Shown: piece by piece, positions 1,981 to 42,952 of the stretch
Layout: each line of letters opens with the position of its first letter
How positions within the stretch are numbered: the stretch's first letter is position 1
Position numbers and translations under genes: made by a program
The notes under the pieces: model-generated
Seen by the model: only the letters and a program-made list of their open reading frames with translations
What the model was told of the DNA's origin: nothing
Databases searched by the model: none
Assembly: GCA_027081405.1 (NCBI GenBank)
Contig: JALWKO010000050.1
Span: 1-43,158, forward strand
Direction: 5' to 3'
Length of the DNA: 43,158 nucleotides
From: Campylobacteraceae bacterium
Lineage (GTDB): Bacteria; Campylobacterota; Campylobacteria; Campylobacterales; Sulfurovaceae

Positions 1981-2112
1981 TTCATTTGTTTTTCTTTGTT
2001 CACGCGACAAAGAAAAACGAAACGAAGCAAAGAAAAAGAAAACGCGAGGTACTGGCGTCTGGGTGGAGATACCATGCTTTGGCGAAACCGTCTAGCGGGA
2101 TTGTGATCCCAT
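1981..2112. repeat. Dispersed element R, copy 1
   Basis: The first 83 bases (1981-2063) are identical to 15068-15150; similarity continues more loosely to the GGGAT-TGTG-ATCCC hairpin near 2098. The element opens with a 15-bp inverted repeat, T-rich arm 1985-1999 and A-rich arm 2007-2021, with one T-G pair and a 7-base loop TCACGCG. A purine-rich stretch follows, then GCGAGGTACTGGCGTCTGG. A degenerate third trace lies at 9973-9991. Short open frames through it are not supported as genes. Confidence 0.85.
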
Positions 2113-6966: not shown

Positions 6967-8160
6967 ATGTCCATCCAACCCGTCACGTCCGTCGAAGCGT
7001 TCCGATCTCTGGTGGAGGAGATCCAGTCCCAGGAGGGCTACCGGCAGCCCGTCGCCTTTGGGATCGCCCGGGTCGACCGGGGTCAGAAAAACGCCGACAA
7101 GGTGCTGCAGGCCAACTATGCCGTCGTCAACTGGAAAGAGAATTACGGTTCGGCGGCGATTTTCATCCGGGCGCTGCAGGAGGCGCGGGTCGCCGTCGAT
7201 TTCAGCGGGAGTGAATTCGTCGCGACCCTCAGCGACGAGTTCGTCGCCAACGCCATGGCGGCTTTCGCCCCCTATGTGGCCGAAGCGGTCGGGGACGCCC
7301 ACCGAAACGTGCAGGTGATCAAAGTCCTCTCGGAGATGGGGGATATCGGCAAAGACTATCGGATCTGCTTCCTTTTCGAAGACGCGGCCCCCAAAAGTGT
7401 CGAGGCGGTCTATCTGAAACTCTACGCCCTCTCCCTGGGCAAAGCGCCCCTGCGGGGGGTCAACCTCGAGGGGGCCTTCGGGGTGCTTACCAACGTCGCC
7501 TGGGTGGGGAACAAACCCTACGAGCTGGAGTATCTGCGGGAACACGAGATCGAAATGAAACTCAAGGGGACCTTCCCCAACATCGACAGCGTAGACAAAT
7601 TCCCCCGCTATCTGCAGCATGTCATCCCCGCCGACAACACCCGGATCCTGGACAGCTCCAAAGTCCGCATGGGGGCCCAGCTGGCCCCCGGCACCACCGT
7701 CATGCCCGGCGCCAGCTACATCAACTTCAACGCCGGGACCCTGGGACCGGTGATGGTCGAAGGGCGGATCTCCTCCTCGGCGGTGGTCGGAAGCGGCTCG
7801 GACGTAGGCGGCGGTGCGAGTATCCTGGGGGTCCTCTCCGGGACGGATGGCAACCCCATCAGCATCGGGGAGAACACTCTGCTGGGGGCCAACTCGGTCA
7901 CCGGGATCCCTCTGGGAGACGGCTGCATCGTCGATGCGGGGATCGCCGTACTGGCCGGGACCAAAATCCGCATCGACGAGGATCAGCTCGCCAAGATCCG
8001 GGAGGCCAACCCCGAGGTGGAGCTGGAGGACAAAACGGTCTTCAAAGGGGCCGAACTCCAGGGGCTCAACGGGATCCACTACCGGATCGATTCCCTCAGC
8101 GGCGAAATGATCGCACGCCGCAGCACCCGGGAGGTGAAGCTCAACGAGGAGCTGCATTGA
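6967..8160 (+). CDS. dapD: 2,3,4,5-tetrahydropyridine-2,6-dicarboxylate N-succinyltransferase
   Basis: 397 residues, matching the long epsilon-type DapD. The enzyme transfers succinyl from succinyl-CoA to tetrahydrodipicolinate in the diaminopimelate/lysine pathway, feeding peptidoglycan synthesis. An N-terminal domain is followed by a left-handed beta-helix region (about 235-345) with repeated hexapeptides such as VRMGAQLAPGTTVMPGASYI and ISIGENTLLGANSVTGI. The start is placed at the second ATG (6967) because TAGGAG lies just before it, while the ATG at 6949 has no Shine-Dalgarno. The stop codon sits inside an 11-bp perfect hairpin. dapA occurs elsewhere in the window (42059-42952). Confidence 0.93.
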   Translation: MSIQPVTSVEAFRSLVEEIQSQEGYRQPVAFGIARVDRGQKNADKVLQANYAVVNWKENYGSAAIFIRALQEARVAVDFSGSEFVATLSDEFVANAMAAFAPYVAEAVGDAHRNVQVIKVLSEMGDIGKDYRICFLFEDAAPKSVEAVYLKLYALSLGKAPLRGVNLEGAFGVLTNVAWVGNKPYELEYLREHEIEMKLKGTFPNIDSVDKFPRYLQHVIPADNTRILDSSKVRMGAQLAPGTTVMPGASYINFNAGTLGPVMVEGRISSSAVVGSGSDVGGGASILGVLSGTDGNPISIGENTLLGANSVTGIPLGDGCIVDAGIAVLAGTKIRIDEDQLAKIREANPEVELEDKTVFKGAELQGLNGIHYRIDSLSGEMIARRSTREVKLNEELH

Positions 8161-8181
8161 TCGAAACGGGGTTTCGATCAA
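8157..8181 (+). other. Perfect hairpin over the dapD stop codon
   Basis: 11-bp stem TTGATCGAAAC (8157-8167), loop GGG, GTTTCGATCAA (8171-8181). The left arm contains the dapD stop; the right arm joins directly onto an AGTGAGG heptamer array. There is no following T-tract, so a classical terminator is unlikely, though RNA 3'-end protection is possible. Confidence 0.7.
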
Positions 8182-8619: not shown

Positions 8620-8865
8620 ATGCGTATCGATAAGTGGCTCAGCAGCGTCAACGTGGTCAAGCGGCGCACCATCGCCCAGGATATGGTCAAAAGCGGCGTG
8701 GTCTACATCAACGGCGTCAAAGCCAAACCCTCCAAAGAGGTGAAGGTGGGCGACCGCATCACCATCGAGTACCTCAAAGGGGCCCGGGAATACGAAGTAC
8801 TGGCGATCCCCACGACCAGGACGATCCCCAAGAGCAAAAAAGAGGAATACGTTCGTGAGCTTTGA
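8620..8865 (+). CDS. S4-domain RNA-binding protein (Hsp15/RqcP-like)
   Basis: 81 residues made almost entirely of one S4 domain: MRIDKWLSSVNVVKRRTIAQ, then SGVVYINGVKAKPSKEVKVGD. This is the layout of Hsp15 (HslR) and RqcP, which bind 50S subunits carrying stalled peptidyl-tRNA. The start at 8620 follows AAGGGA; the earlier ATG at 8560 would add an unlikely tail. The stop codon lies inside a 7-bp perfect hairpin (GTGAGCT...AGCTCAC). trpD begins 38 bases later. Its role in ribosome rescue is inferred from the family. Confidence 0.82.
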   Translation: MRIDKWLSSVNVVKRRTIAQDMVKSGVVYINGVKAKPSKEVKVGDRITIEYLKGAREYEVLAIPTTRTIPKSKKEEYVREL

Positions 8866-8873
8866 GAGCTCAC
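8855..8873 (+). other. Perfect hairpin over the stop codon of the S4 gene
   Basis: GTGAGCT (8855-8861), loop TTGAG, AGCTCAC (8867-8873). The stop TGA is at 8863-8865. A heptamer array begins three bases later. No T-tract. Confidence 0.6.
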
Positions 8874-8875
8874 GG

Positions 8876-15067: not shown

Positions 15068-15203
15068 TTCATTTGTTTTTCTTTGTTCACGCGACAAAGA
15101 AAAACGAAACGAAGCAAAGAAAAAGAAAACGCGAGGTACTGGCGTCTGGGCGGAGATGCCATTGGATGGGGGAATCGTGTAGCGTGGGATTGCGATCCCA
15201 CGG
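15068..15203. repeat. Dispersed element R, copy 2
   Basis: Bases 15068-15150 are identical to 1981-2063, including the long T-rich/A-rich hairpin. After that the copies diverge but both keep a GGGAT-TGYG-ATCCC hairpin near their end (here TGGGAT-TGCG-ATCCCA). Same orientation as copy 1. Confidence 0.85.
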
Positions 15204-26021: not shown

Positions 26022-26280
26022 AGTGAGGAGTGAAGAGTGAGTTTCCGTCGTTTGTCGTTTGAACGGGGCTTCACCTCTCTTTGTCGTTTGAGACTGGTCG
26101 GTAGTCGGCAGTCGGCAATCGGCAGTAAGTGCGCCTTCGGCGCCGTTATTGGTGTATTGGTGTATTGGTGTATTGGAAGCGTTGCAAAGCAACGCTTAGC
26201 GAAATTCTCAATTCTCAATTCTCCATTCTCCATTAAAAATCGGTTCCTCACTCCTCACTTCTCATTCCTCGCTCCAGAAC
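26022..26280. repeat. Heptamer arrays between moaA and queE
   Basis: AGTGAGG units at 26022-26041. GTCGTTT pairs at 26047-26060 and again at 26083. GTCGGTA/GTCGGCA/ATCGGCA at 26097-26124. GCGCC-TTC-GGCGC at 26131-26143. Period-8 GGTGTATT repeats at about 26149-26175. GCGTTGC-AAA-GCAACGC, ATTCTCA/ATTCTCC units at 26204-26231, and CCTCACT units at about 26246-26275. No gene seen. Confidence 0.85.
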
Positions 26281-39451: not shown

Positions 39452-39690
39452 GGATGGAGAATTTCGGGGCACCGCGTGGCGGCACGATGTGAGTGAAGAA
39501 TGAAAAATGAAAAGTGAAGAATGGCGGTGCGCCGCGTGGCGCGGATTGATGATGGATTTTGGATTTTGGATTGTGGGGCGTTGCGTTGCAACGCGTTTTC
39601 AAACGATACACAACGTATCCCCAATGACCAGTGACCAATGACGAATGACGTTGCCGAAGGCAACAGTTCTTGCGACCAGAGGCCCGAAGG
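39433..39690. repeat. Heptamer-array/hairpin mosaic after hrpB
   Basis: ATTGAGA/GTTGAGA/ATTGAGG/ATGGAGA at 39433-39460 (covering the hrpB stop), AGTGAAG/AATGAAA units at 39492-39519, GGATTTT units at about 39553-39571, GCGTTGC-GTT-GCAACGC, AATGACC-type units at 39622-39649, GTTGCC-GAA-GGCAAC at 39650-39664, and GGCCC-GAA-GGGCC at 39681-39693. No gene seen. Confidence 0.85.
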
Positions 39691-39731: not shown

Positions 39732-40478
39732 TCAGAGTTCGATCCCGAGTCGTTTGGCCAGTTCCCGGGCCGCGACGGTGGCTTTGTCCTCCAGATACAG
39801 ATCGGTCCGATCGGCGGTGTAGCGGGAAGGTTCGACGTTGATCTCGATCATCGGTGCGCGGGTCTGATACGGCAGCATCGAGGCGGGTGCCACTTCCCCC
39901 GTGGTCCCCACGACGATCAGGAGATCGGCCTCACCCAGGAGCCGTTCCGATTCGCGCCACGCTTCGGGGGGAATCGATTCGCCGAAAAAGACGAAATCGG
40001 GCTTGAGCACTCCGCCGCATCGGGTGCAGCGGGGCGGAAGCTCGCTCAGGTCGTGCTCGGTGAAGGGGGTGCGATCCCGACATTCGGTACACACGAGGGT
40101 CCGGGCGGTGCCGTGAAACTCCACGACGGTGCGGCTCCCCGCTTCCTGATGGAGGTTGTCGATGTTCTGGGTGATGACGCCGATGAGCGATCCGGCCTCC
40201 TCCAGCCGGGCGAGGAAGCGATGGGCCGCGTTGGGTCGGGCGTTGGCCCCCATGTAGTCGTAAAAAATCTCCCGGATCGCTTCCCATGACTCCCGCGGGT
40301 GGGCGAAAAAATACCCCAGATCGAGGATCTTGGGGTCGTAGCGGCTCCAGAGCCCTTCGGCACCGCGGAAGGTGGGGATGCCGCTCTCGACCGAGATTCC
40401 GGCACCGGTGAAAGCGACGATCCGCCGGGCCTCGTCGATCATCCGTGCCGCTTCGTCGTACTGTCCTTTCGTAGCCAT
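39732..40478 (-). CDS. cobB: Sirtuin-type NAD-dependent protein deacylase
   Basis: 248 residues. FTGAGISVESGIPTFRG (about 31-47) binds NAD; TQNIDNLHQEAG, EFHGTARTL with the catalytic His, and two zinc Cys pairs (CTEC, CTRC) are all present; KPDFVFFGE follows. This is the class III sirtuin layout. The start at 40478 follows AAGGAG by five bases. Downstream of pgsA, 72 bases away, with a possible own promoter (TACAAT on the minus strand at 40517-40522). Confidence 0.92.
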   Translation of the reverse strand: MATKGQYDEAARMIDEARRIVAFTGAGISVESGIPTFRGAEGLWSRYDPKILDLGYFFAHPRESWEAIREIFYDYMGANARPNAAHRFLARLEEAGSLIGVITQNIDNLHQEAGSRTVVEFHGTARTLVCTECRDRTPFTEHDLSELPPRCTRCGGVLKPDFVFFGESIPPEAWRESERLLGEADLLIVVGTTGEVAPASMLPYQTRAPMIEINVEPSRYTADRTDLYLEDKATVAARELAKRLGIEL

Positions 40479-40550
40479 CACGACTCCTTGTTCGGGGAAG
40501 TGGTGGGGTAAAAGGTATTGTACTTTATCTCCGGCTCGGCGGGGACGGGA

Positions 40551-41096
40551 TCAGTGCAGGGCGGTCTGGCGGAAATAGTCCCGGACGTACTCGTAGCCGC
40601 TGTAGAGGGTCAGCGCTACGGCGATCCAGAGCAGGAGGGTGCCGCCGGGCCACTCCATGAGGAGGAACCCGATGGCGAACATCTGGCTGACCGTCTTGAC
40701 CTTGCCCATCCAGCTGGCCGAGACCTTGAGCCCCCGTCCCGCGGCGGAGACCCGAAGCCCGGTGATGAAAAGTTCGCGGGTGAGGATCAGATAGATCGCC
40801 CAGGGGTCGGCGCGCCCCAGCAGCATCAGCCCCAGAAATCCCGCCAGGGTGAGCATCTTGTCGGCCAGCGGGTCGAGAATCTCCCCCAGGGGGGTGATCT
40901 GGTCGAAGGTGCGGGCGATATAGCCGTCGAAAAAATCGGTCGCGCTGGCGAGGACGAAGAGAAACGCGGCACCGTAATCGAGCCAGCTGTAGTGGATCCC
41001 CTCGAAAACGCTCCAGTCCCGATCGACCAGGAGCAGATACATCAGCGGCGCCATCAGGAGGCGGATGAACGCCAGGACGTTGGGCACGTTAACCAT
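40551..41096 (-). CDS. pgsA: CDP-diacylglycerol-glycerol-3-phosphate 3-phosphatidyltransferase
   Basis: 181 residues, five to six membrane helices. The CDP-alcohol phosphotransferase motif is present as DFFDGYIARTFDQITPLGEILDPLADK in spread form (D-G-x2-AR-x8-G-x3-D-x3-D). Makes phosphatidylglycerol phosphate. The ATG at 41096 is chosen because AGGAG lies five bases upstream. That Shine-Dalgarno lies in the loop, and the ATG in the stem, of an 18-bp perfect hairpin. Confidence 0.93.
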   Translation of the reverse strand: MVNVPNVLAFIRLLMAPLMYLLLVDRDWSVFEGIHYSWLDYGAAFLFVLASATDFFDGYIARTFDQITPLGEILDPLADKMLTLAGFLGLMLLGRADPWAIYLILTRELFITGLRVSAAGRGLKVSASWMGKVKTVSQMFAIGFLLMEWPGGTLLLWIAVALTLYSGYEYVRDYFRQTALH

Positions 41097-41124
41097 CCGC
41101 ACTCCTGTGCGGATGGTTAACGTG
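41085..41124 (-). promoter_or_regulatory. Perfect 18-bp hairpin holding the pgsA start codon
   Basis: Arms 41085-41102 and 41107-41124 are exact inverted copies; the loop on the message is AGGA (41106-41103), part of the Shine-Dalgarno AGGAG. The start codon (41096-41094) is paired inside the stem. The outer arm joins directly to a GGATTTT heptamer array. Confidence 0.85.
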
Positions 41125-41261
41125 GATTTTGGATTTTGGATTTTGGATTTTGGATTGAAGGATTATAAATTGAAGATTATTGCTTGAAAAAAACCTCTCA
41201 AACCAATACACCAATACACCAATACACCAATACACTAAAAAATTCATTCTCAATCCTCCAT
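41124..41261. repeat. Tandem repeats between pgsA and the reductase gene
   Basis: GGATTTT four full units plus a partial at 41124-41157; CCAATACA four units of 8 bases at 41203-41234; then ATTCTCA/ATCCTCC units up to the hairpin at 41262. Confidence 0.85.
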
Positions 41262-41284
41262 TCCGCTGATACAATCAGCGGAAC
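41262..41284 (-). other. Perfect hairpin over the stop codon of the FabL-like gene
   Basis: Plus-strand arms TTCCGCTGAT and ATCAGCGGAA with loop ACA. The stop (TGA on the minus strand, 41275-41277) is inside the right arm. The left arm abuts a heptamer array. No T-tract. Confidence 0.7.
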
Positions 41285-42054
41285 GTCGTTCCCCCGTCGA
41301 CCACGATCGTCTGGCCGGTGATCCAGCTGGCGTCGTCGGTGCAGAGGAAATAGATCGCCCCGGCGAGATCTTCGGGGGTCCCCATCCGGTTGAGGGCCGA
41401 GCGTTTGATCGTTTCGGCTTTGACCTCTTCGTAGTTGGTGAAGGCTTTGAGGGCGTCGGTCTCGATGGGGCCGCCGCTGACGGCGTTGACCCGGATGTTC
41501 CACTCCCCCAGCTCCACGGCGGCGTAGCGGGCCATCGCCTCGACGGCCGCTTTGTTGGTGCCGTGGCCGGCGTAGTTTTCGATGTAGATCAGATTGCCGG
41601 TGGAGCTGAGCGTGACGATGGATCCGCCACCCACTTCTTTCATCCGTTTGGCCGCCTCCTGGCTCCCGGCGACGAAGGCGCCGACGGTGGCCATGTAGAT
41701 GTTGGCCAGCCCTTTTTTGGGGCGGAGTTTCATGAATTTGCCGTATCCCCCGACGACGGGGCGGCCGTAGATCATGGCGTTGGAGACGAAAAAATCGACC
41801 CGGTCGAAATCCCGGTCGATCGCTTCGAAGAGGGGTTTGAACTGGTCGGTGTCGAGGATGTCCAGGGGGTAGCAGCGGGCTTTGACGCCGTAGCGCTCTT
41901 CCAGCTCTCCGGCGAACTCCTCGGCCGCTTCTTTGTTGGTATTGTAGGTGAATGCCACGTTGACGCCGTTGCGGGCGAATTTTTCGGCGGTGGCCCGGCC
42001 GATTCCGCGGGTCCCTCCGGTGATGACGAGGGTCTTGCCTTTCATTTCGCTCAT
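41275..42054 (-). CDS. FabL-like enoyl-ACP reductase (SDR family)
   Basis: 259 residues. Rossmann motif VITGGTRGIGRATAEKF near the N-terminus; the active-site pattern is Y-x6-K (YAGHGTNK), as in enoyl-ACP reductases; RVNAVSGGPIETDALKAF and TGQTIVVDGG closely follow the FabL pattern of Bacillus. Probably reduces enoyl-ACP in fatty-acid synthesis, though another oxidoreductase role is possible. It starts four bases after dapA. I recall an oxidoreductase behind dapA in Campylobacter. Confidence 0.85.
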   Translation of the reverse strand: MSEMKGKTLVITGGTRGIGRATAEKFARNGVNVAFTYNTNKEAAEEFAGELEERYGVKARCYPLDILDTDQFKPLFEAIDRDFDRVDFFVSNAMIYGRPVVGGYGKFMKLRPKKGLANIYMATVGAFVAGSQEAAKRMKEVGGGSIVTLSSTGNLIYIENYAGHGTNKAAVEAMARYAAVELGEWNIRVNAVSGGPIETDALKAFTNYEEVKAETIKRSALNRMGTPEDLAGAIYFLCTDDASWITGQTIVVDGGTTFR

Positions 42055-42058
42055 GGGG

Positions 42059-42952
42059 TTACGCTCCGGGAATGGTGTAGTTTTTCATCGCCTCTTCGAT
42101 CTGTTTCATGTGTTCGGCGCTGGGGGGGACCAGCGGGAGGCGGTATTCGAGGGTGGGAATGAGCCCGGCGATGTACATTGCCGCCTTGACCGGGATGGGG
42201 TTGGATTCGACGAACATCGCTTTGTTGATGGGGTAGAGGGAGTCGTTGATCGCTTTGGAGGTCTTCAGGTCCCCCTCCAGGGCGGCGTGGACCAGTTTGG
42301 ACTTGAGATCCGGCAGGAGGTTGGCTGTGACCGAGATCACCCCTTTGGCTCCGTTGGCCAGGAGGGGATAGTCGATGGCGTCGTCTCCGCTGACGAGGCA
42401 GAGGGCGGGGCGGGCCGCCAGGAGATCGACCGCCCGCTCCATCGAGCCGGTGGCCTCCTTGATGGCGTAGATGTTCTCCACTTCGTCGAAAAGGCGGAAA
42501 ACCGTCGCGGGCAGCAGATCCACCGAGGTGCGTCCCGGGACGTTGTAGAGCATCACCGGGATCGAAACCGCTTCGGCGATCGCTTTGTAGTGGCGGTAGA
42601 GCCCTTCCTGGGAGGGTTTGTTGTAATAGGGCGTCACCGAGAGGATCCCGTCGGCTCCGCACTCCTGGGCGTGGCGGGCGATGTCGATCGCTTCGTGAGT
42701 GGCGTTGGAGCCTGCGCCGGCGAGGACCCGCACCCCGGTGCCGCGGCACACCTCCACGGCGATTTCGATGCACCGTTTGTGCTCGTCGTGGCTGAGCGTC
42801 GCGCTCTCACCGGTCGTCCCCACCGGGACCACCGCGTCGATGCCGTGGCGGATCTGTCGCCGGATGAGGGAGGCGTAGGTCTCTTCGTCGAGTTTACCGT
42901 TGCGAAAAGGGGTGATCAGCGCCGTCATGGCGCCGCAGATGGGGGAACTCAT
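42059..42952 (-). CDS. dapA: 4-hydroxy-tetrahydrodipicolinate synthase
   Basis: 297 residues, standard TIM-barrel enzyme condensing pyruvate and aspartate semialdehyde for lysine/diaminopimelate synthesis. GTTGES (45-50), Tyr136 in LYNVPGRT and the Schiff-base Lys165 in YAIKEATG are present. Its ATG overlaps the stop of the preceding peptidase gene (ATGA), so it is in the same operon. Acts before dapD (6967-8160). Confidence 0.97.

Follow-up and report, generated by a model that had tools for sequence, protein, structure and literature searches.

Why should the start codon of pgsA, an essential gene of lipid synthesis, lie within an 18-bp perfect inverted repeat, and how would ribosomes reach it there? 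The question arose in a 43,158-nucleotide stretch of a Campylobacteraceae genome (the window), in which dapA, a fabI-like enoyl-ACP reductase gene, pgsA and a sirtuin gene follow one another in this order, all on the minus strand. The features at and around the start of pgsA are as follows.

40551..41096, minus strand: pgsA, CDP-diacylglycerol--glycerol-3-phosphate 3-phosphatidyltransferase (TIGR00560, E 2.8e-43, above the cut-off)
41085..41124, minus strand: palindrome of 18-bp perfect arms, exact inverted copies of each other (41085-41102 and 41107-41124), with a 4-nt loop (41103-41106); on the pgsA message, 5' arm 41124-41107, loop AGGA 41106-41103, 3' arm 41102-41085
41123..41156, minus strand: heptamer array flush with the palindrome, (AAAATCC)n on the message, that is, (GGATTTT)n outward from pgsA
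41162..41190, minus strand: promoter-like site TTTTCA-17-TATAAT, by consensus match only
41202..41235, minus strand: octamer array, (ACCAATAC)n on the plus strand and (GTATTGGT)n on the message
41261..41283, minus strand: second palindrome, TTCCGCTGAT-TGT-ATCAGCGGAA, from the fabI 3' end including the stop codon
41275..42054, minus strand: enoyl-ACP reductase gene (fabI-like), upstream neighbour of pgsA (NF006267, E 2.8e-142)

The sequence-only reading had described two exact inverted arms, a loop of AGGA, an AUG paired in the stem and a very stable structure, and in all of this it was right. With the base composition of the window, an 18-bp repeat with a loop of 3-8 nt is expected by chance about 6e-6 times per window and 2.6e-4 times in the 1.93-Mb genome, and no other perfect inverted repeat longer than 12 bp (loop of at most 20 nt) occurs within the 43 kb. 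The predicted fold of a 111-nt message stretch had an energy of -42 kcal/mol (z -7.6; no shuffled sequence equalled it), and that of the local 63 nt at the pgsA start reached -33 kcal/mol. The AUG (41096-41094) lies within the 3' arm, and the Shine-Dalgarno (SD) sequence lies within the loop. A GUG at 41102 is also in the pgsA frame; since it directly adjoins the SD sequence, the AUG is the likelier start, and the homologous codon in relatives is AUG, GUG or UUG. The promoter-like site, a consensus match only, would place both array and hairpin in the pgsA leader. The gene is the single TIGR00560 match in the whole genome. An Rfam search of positions 40400-42100 yielded no credible match above the gathering score; IRES_Bip fell below the threshold and was judged spurious. 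Reading the left arms, which are the inverted codons of the protein start, as a TATAAC-like -10 element fitted some loci only and was dropped.

The closest relatives of this pgsA were found in Nitratifractor metagenome-assembled genomes (MAGs), and the start hairpin was present at all eight pgsA loci (from seven genomes) of the repeat-bearing core clade of that genus, with 11-18 pairs: 18 in the window, and 18, 18 (one G-U), 11/12, 18, 12, 16 and 15 (one bulge) elsewhere. One of these genomes, G003 (L110, L119), contributes two divergent pgsA copies and has 7% contamination; it is probably a mixed MAG. Every one of the hairpins adjoins a heptamer array, of several types, and the local fold energies at the eight starts range from -17 to -33 kcal/mol. 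The arms differ among species, with complementarity kept by double changes, so that the inverted arm proved to be conserved in relatives, as the sequence-only reading had proposed to check. Three loci have a CCAAAAT spacer in common; of the 54 pairs in their stems, 53 are Watson-Crick and a single one is G-U, and four columns show compensatory changes, even though the gene bodies have diverged by 33-36% at four-fold sites. Between L110 and L112, and between L111 and L119, the gene bodies are 94% identical and the arrays and hairpins are different. The SD sequence sits in the loop at only about half of the pgsA loci and in the stem at four. Two basal members of the genus (L116, L117) have a short spacer, without array or pgsA start hairpin, and a comparable start hairpin was absent from about 60 further Campylobacterota pgsA loci, some of which have an ordinary upstream hairpin. 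Equivalents of the palindrome at the fabI end covary in relatives as well (TTTCGC/GCGAAA in one species, TTCCGC/GCGGAA in others).

The pgsA hairpin is a member of a wider class of array-linked palindromes. Our survey drew stretches from two genomes, 414 kb from the window's own (a total that includes the window) and 400 kb from a single-contig relative. Among 314 array edges, nine had a palindrome of 9 bp or more flush with them and the other 305 had none; of 2029 random points, one had such a palindrome (Fisher p 1e-7). At 12 bp or more, the counts were five array edges and no random point. Some of these structures were found at stop codons (window 8157-8181, L092, L094, L104) and others at the starts of an oadG-like gene and of pdxA. 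In the window, palindromes at 8157-8181 and 8854-8874 each end a plus-strand gene and are each flush with a heptamer array. At L094 (5855-5879), the inverted copy itself provides the stop codon according to the open reading frame (ORF) call, which implies that the palindrome would have rewritten the C-terminus of the protein. Hairpin scores of at least 8 were obtained at 5 of 17 starts just downstream of an array versus 6 of 644 coding controls in the own genome, and at 2 of 7 versus 4 of 624 in the single-contig relative; called starts may be off, as the ORF caller used a simple codon score. A general rise of start-site structure beside arrays was not significant (p 0.13), and stop sites beside arrays were slightly less structured. 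The oadG-like gene combines an SD sequence in the loop with an AUG in the stem in two of six species, and its long start hairpin is likewise kept in two of six. Palindromes at the pdxA start were seen in three species, one using AUG and another UUG with the left arm altered to match. The common denominator of these hairpins is thus the flush heptamer array, not the start codon.

This was clearest in an lnt-like gene (a name inferred from a weak Pfam CN_hydrolase match, under its cut-off), where five species carry a palindrome of 19-21 bp that directly abuts a heptamer array. Both arms and the array sit within one translated ORF, with no start codon involved, in a variable linker whose flanking conserved segments are joined in frame in basal species too. 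All 99 pairs in these five species are Watson-Crick, and eight columns vary. Related genomes appear to preserve the steps that lead there: G009 (L150), without a clear array, has just a natural 7-bp seed (TAAAAGG..CCTTTTA) in the lnt-like codons; G002 and G008 have the array and short pairing at the site (8 bp in G002); and in the five species the seed is extended to the array edge. A quasipalindrome would be expected to become a palindrome by just such a series, in which a shorter imperfect inverted repeat comes before the perfect one; it was found here for the lnt-like gene. The heptamer arrays in frame inside this ORF (L146-L154) encode a repetitive linker, for example PSSIFHL units.

Fold-back template switching during replication, at the edges of arrays, offers the best explanation of how these palindromes are made and re-perfected, and we put its probability at roughly 60%. 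A replicating strand that had already copied the 5' end of pgsA would arrive at the edge of the heptamer array, fold back, copy about 18 nt of its own sequence and then proceed into the array. The product would be the gene start followed by the loop, then the inverted copy, then the array. After each mutation, further switching from one arm to the other may restore perfect pairing, so that the arms could change in sequence and still match each other. Palindromes flush with arrays at other starts, at stop codons and within the lnt-like ORF could have the same origin. Such a mechanism would cover the array-flush position, the use of local gene sequence, the perfection of the arms, the scarcity of G-U pairs, the double changes and the indifference to start, stop or linker. 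In keeping with it, the pgsA trio and the lnt-like gene carry near-perfect Watson-Crick inverted copies of the adjacent sequence, multi-base changes occur in both arms together (four columns in the pgsA trio, eight in lnt-like) and a shorter imperfect inverted repeat is found beforehand at the lnt-like gene. Template switching is reported to create and re-perfect hairpins (PMC8794818) and to homogenise the arms of inverted repeats inside coding genes (PMC8604942). We infer both this replication mechanism and the way in which translation copes with the pgsA hairpin. The start structure of -33 kcal/mol would be tolerated by the cell, ribosomes probably entering by way of the SD loop and of the unstructured array beside it, or else the pgsA transcript may begin inside the palindrome.

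That an RNA stem is functional is ordinarily proved by compensatory change. A cis-acting RNA hairpin selected to control pgsA translation, with the SD sequence in the loop, the AUG hidden and ribosomes entering through the array as a standby site or by unwinding, has in its favour the hairpin at eight of eight core-clade loci with compensatory changes, the start codon or SD sequence in a stable stem at all eight, as expected of a start hairpin or RNA thermometer, and the SD sequence in the loop at the oadG-like and pdxA starts of some species. A single-stranded repeat leader beside a sequestered ribosome-binding site also resembles the tisB standby site, as far as the available part of that report describes it (PMC7708055). 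We nevertheless consider this account unlikely. Confinement to translation starts was not found, the palindromes being as perfect at stops and inside the lnt-like ORF; the SD sequence is in the stem, not the loop, at four pgsA loci; genes with an array before their start are not significantly more structured; and the hairpin belongs to no Rfam family. Selection on RNA only should leave more G-U pairs, so their near-absence favours switching at the DNA level, in a comparison with RNA-selected stems that is qualitative. The proposal that the hairpin exists as a translation lock was not supported: stop codons have palindromes of the same class, the lnt-like ORF has them just as perfect and covarying, and the SD sequence occupies the loop at only about half of the pgsA loci. 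As read from the sequence, a translational lock at pgsA is possible and superfluous for explaining the palindrome; hairpins that appear wherever 7-base repeats meet genes look like the mark of a copying mechanism, not a purpose-built pgsA switch. The retention of the hairpin at all pgsA loci, versus 5 of 9 core-clade genomes for the long lnt-like palindrome and 2 of 6 species for the oadG-like gene, leaves room for some selection at pgsA, and the centring of several start hairpins (pgsA, oadG-like, pdxA) on the SD sequence is only weakly predicted by a purely mutational account. A more speculative combination, which we hold to be improbable, is that gene borders in Nitratifractor are composite units of a fold-back copy of the gene edge and outward G-rich heptamers, made and repaired by a dedicated or strongly biased DNA synthesis, and now used at pgsA and a few other genes as SD-in-loop start hairpins that would load ribosomes.

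Array and palindrome might also be a single mobile or end-joining product, in which DNA ends were healed by fold-back synthesis and addition of G-rich heptamers; healing of this kind would give identical outward polarity at every gene edge. Indeed, of 63 arrays in the own genome, 59 have their G-rich strand pointing away from the gene edge, whether they precede a start or follow a stop (p 1e-13), the array type and hairpin switch together between the loci with 94% identical gene bodies, and arrays, GCGTTGC hairpin and start hairpins are jointly missing from basal members of the genus. However, most array edges (305/314) lack a flush palindrome of 9 bp or more, the enzyme is a postulated one, and the heptamers of Xanthomonas and Nostoc have the same polarity (their G-rich strand is antisense shortly before ORFs and sense directly behind stops), such palindromes not being described in the accessible part of that report (PMC4692102). 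The outward polarity is thus not new in itself, and we regard this origin as quite improbable. Termination of transcription is a far weaker candidate. On the plus strand, the stem and the GATTTTGGAT behind it are picked up by a consensus scan, but the T run is merely the GGATTTT array, palindromes within the lnt-like ORF cannot terminate, and no gene precedes the structure on that strand; a plus-strand terminator would serve none of the minus-strand genes dapA, fabI, pgsA and sirtuin, and an intrinsic terminator was rejected. Least credible is an artefact of assembly or amplification: the window, like most of its relatives, comes from a draft genome, but a single-contig genome of the same genus (2,101,285 bp) carries its own 18-bp version and independent MAGs carry different, gene-matched arms, so this explanation was ruled out. 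Replicative template switching remains our preferred reading of the palindromes.

Among known systems, hairpins formed by template switching at quasipalindromes (PMC8794818, PMC7202029, PMC8604942) share with ours the perfect inverted copies of adjacent sequence, the homogenised arms, the multi-base double changes and the occurrence inside coding genes, whereas the Nitratifractor palindromes are linked to heptamer-array edges and lie genus-wide at gene borders, covering starts and stops. The intergenic heptamers of Xanthomonas and Nostoc, in the part of the report available (PMC4692102), resemble these arrays in their 7-bp unit, about four copies and polarity; the units here are less G-rich, with many types together, and array-flush palindromes copied from the adjoining gene are not mentioned in that part. 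Mitochondrial genes of Nematomorpha also contain perfect inverted repeats within coding sequence, but these are mitochondrial, reach up to 284 bp and, in the accessible text, have no stated link to heptamer arrays (PMC6649704). The E. coli tisB standby site likewise places a stable structure over a start beside a single-stranded leader, and its function was tested according to the text available (PMC7708055), whereas the pgsA hairpin is known from sequence. The perfect, covarying stems at array edges, whether at starts, at stops or within an ORF, suggest that covariation by itself can, in bacteria, be a product of template switching at the DNA level. Nitratifractor provides natural replicates, with the same gene and site, different arms, and before and after states, and lets one test both the origin of palindromes and the translation of an essential gene from a start hairpin of -33 kcal/mol.

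Other repeats accompany the arrays. A REP-like hairpin, GCGTTGC-NNN-GCAACGC, is dispersed between heptamer arrays (e.g., window 26180-26200 and 39577-39593), with 57 copies in the own genome, 35 in the single-contig relative and none in four basal members of the genus. An intergenic hairpin, GTTTTTCTTTGT-TCACGCG-ACAAAGAAAAAC, lies between arrays in the window (1988-2018, 15075-15105) and at L099 (19391-19421), and CTTTGT...ACAAAG stretches resembling it precede pgsA in some Sulfurovum loci.
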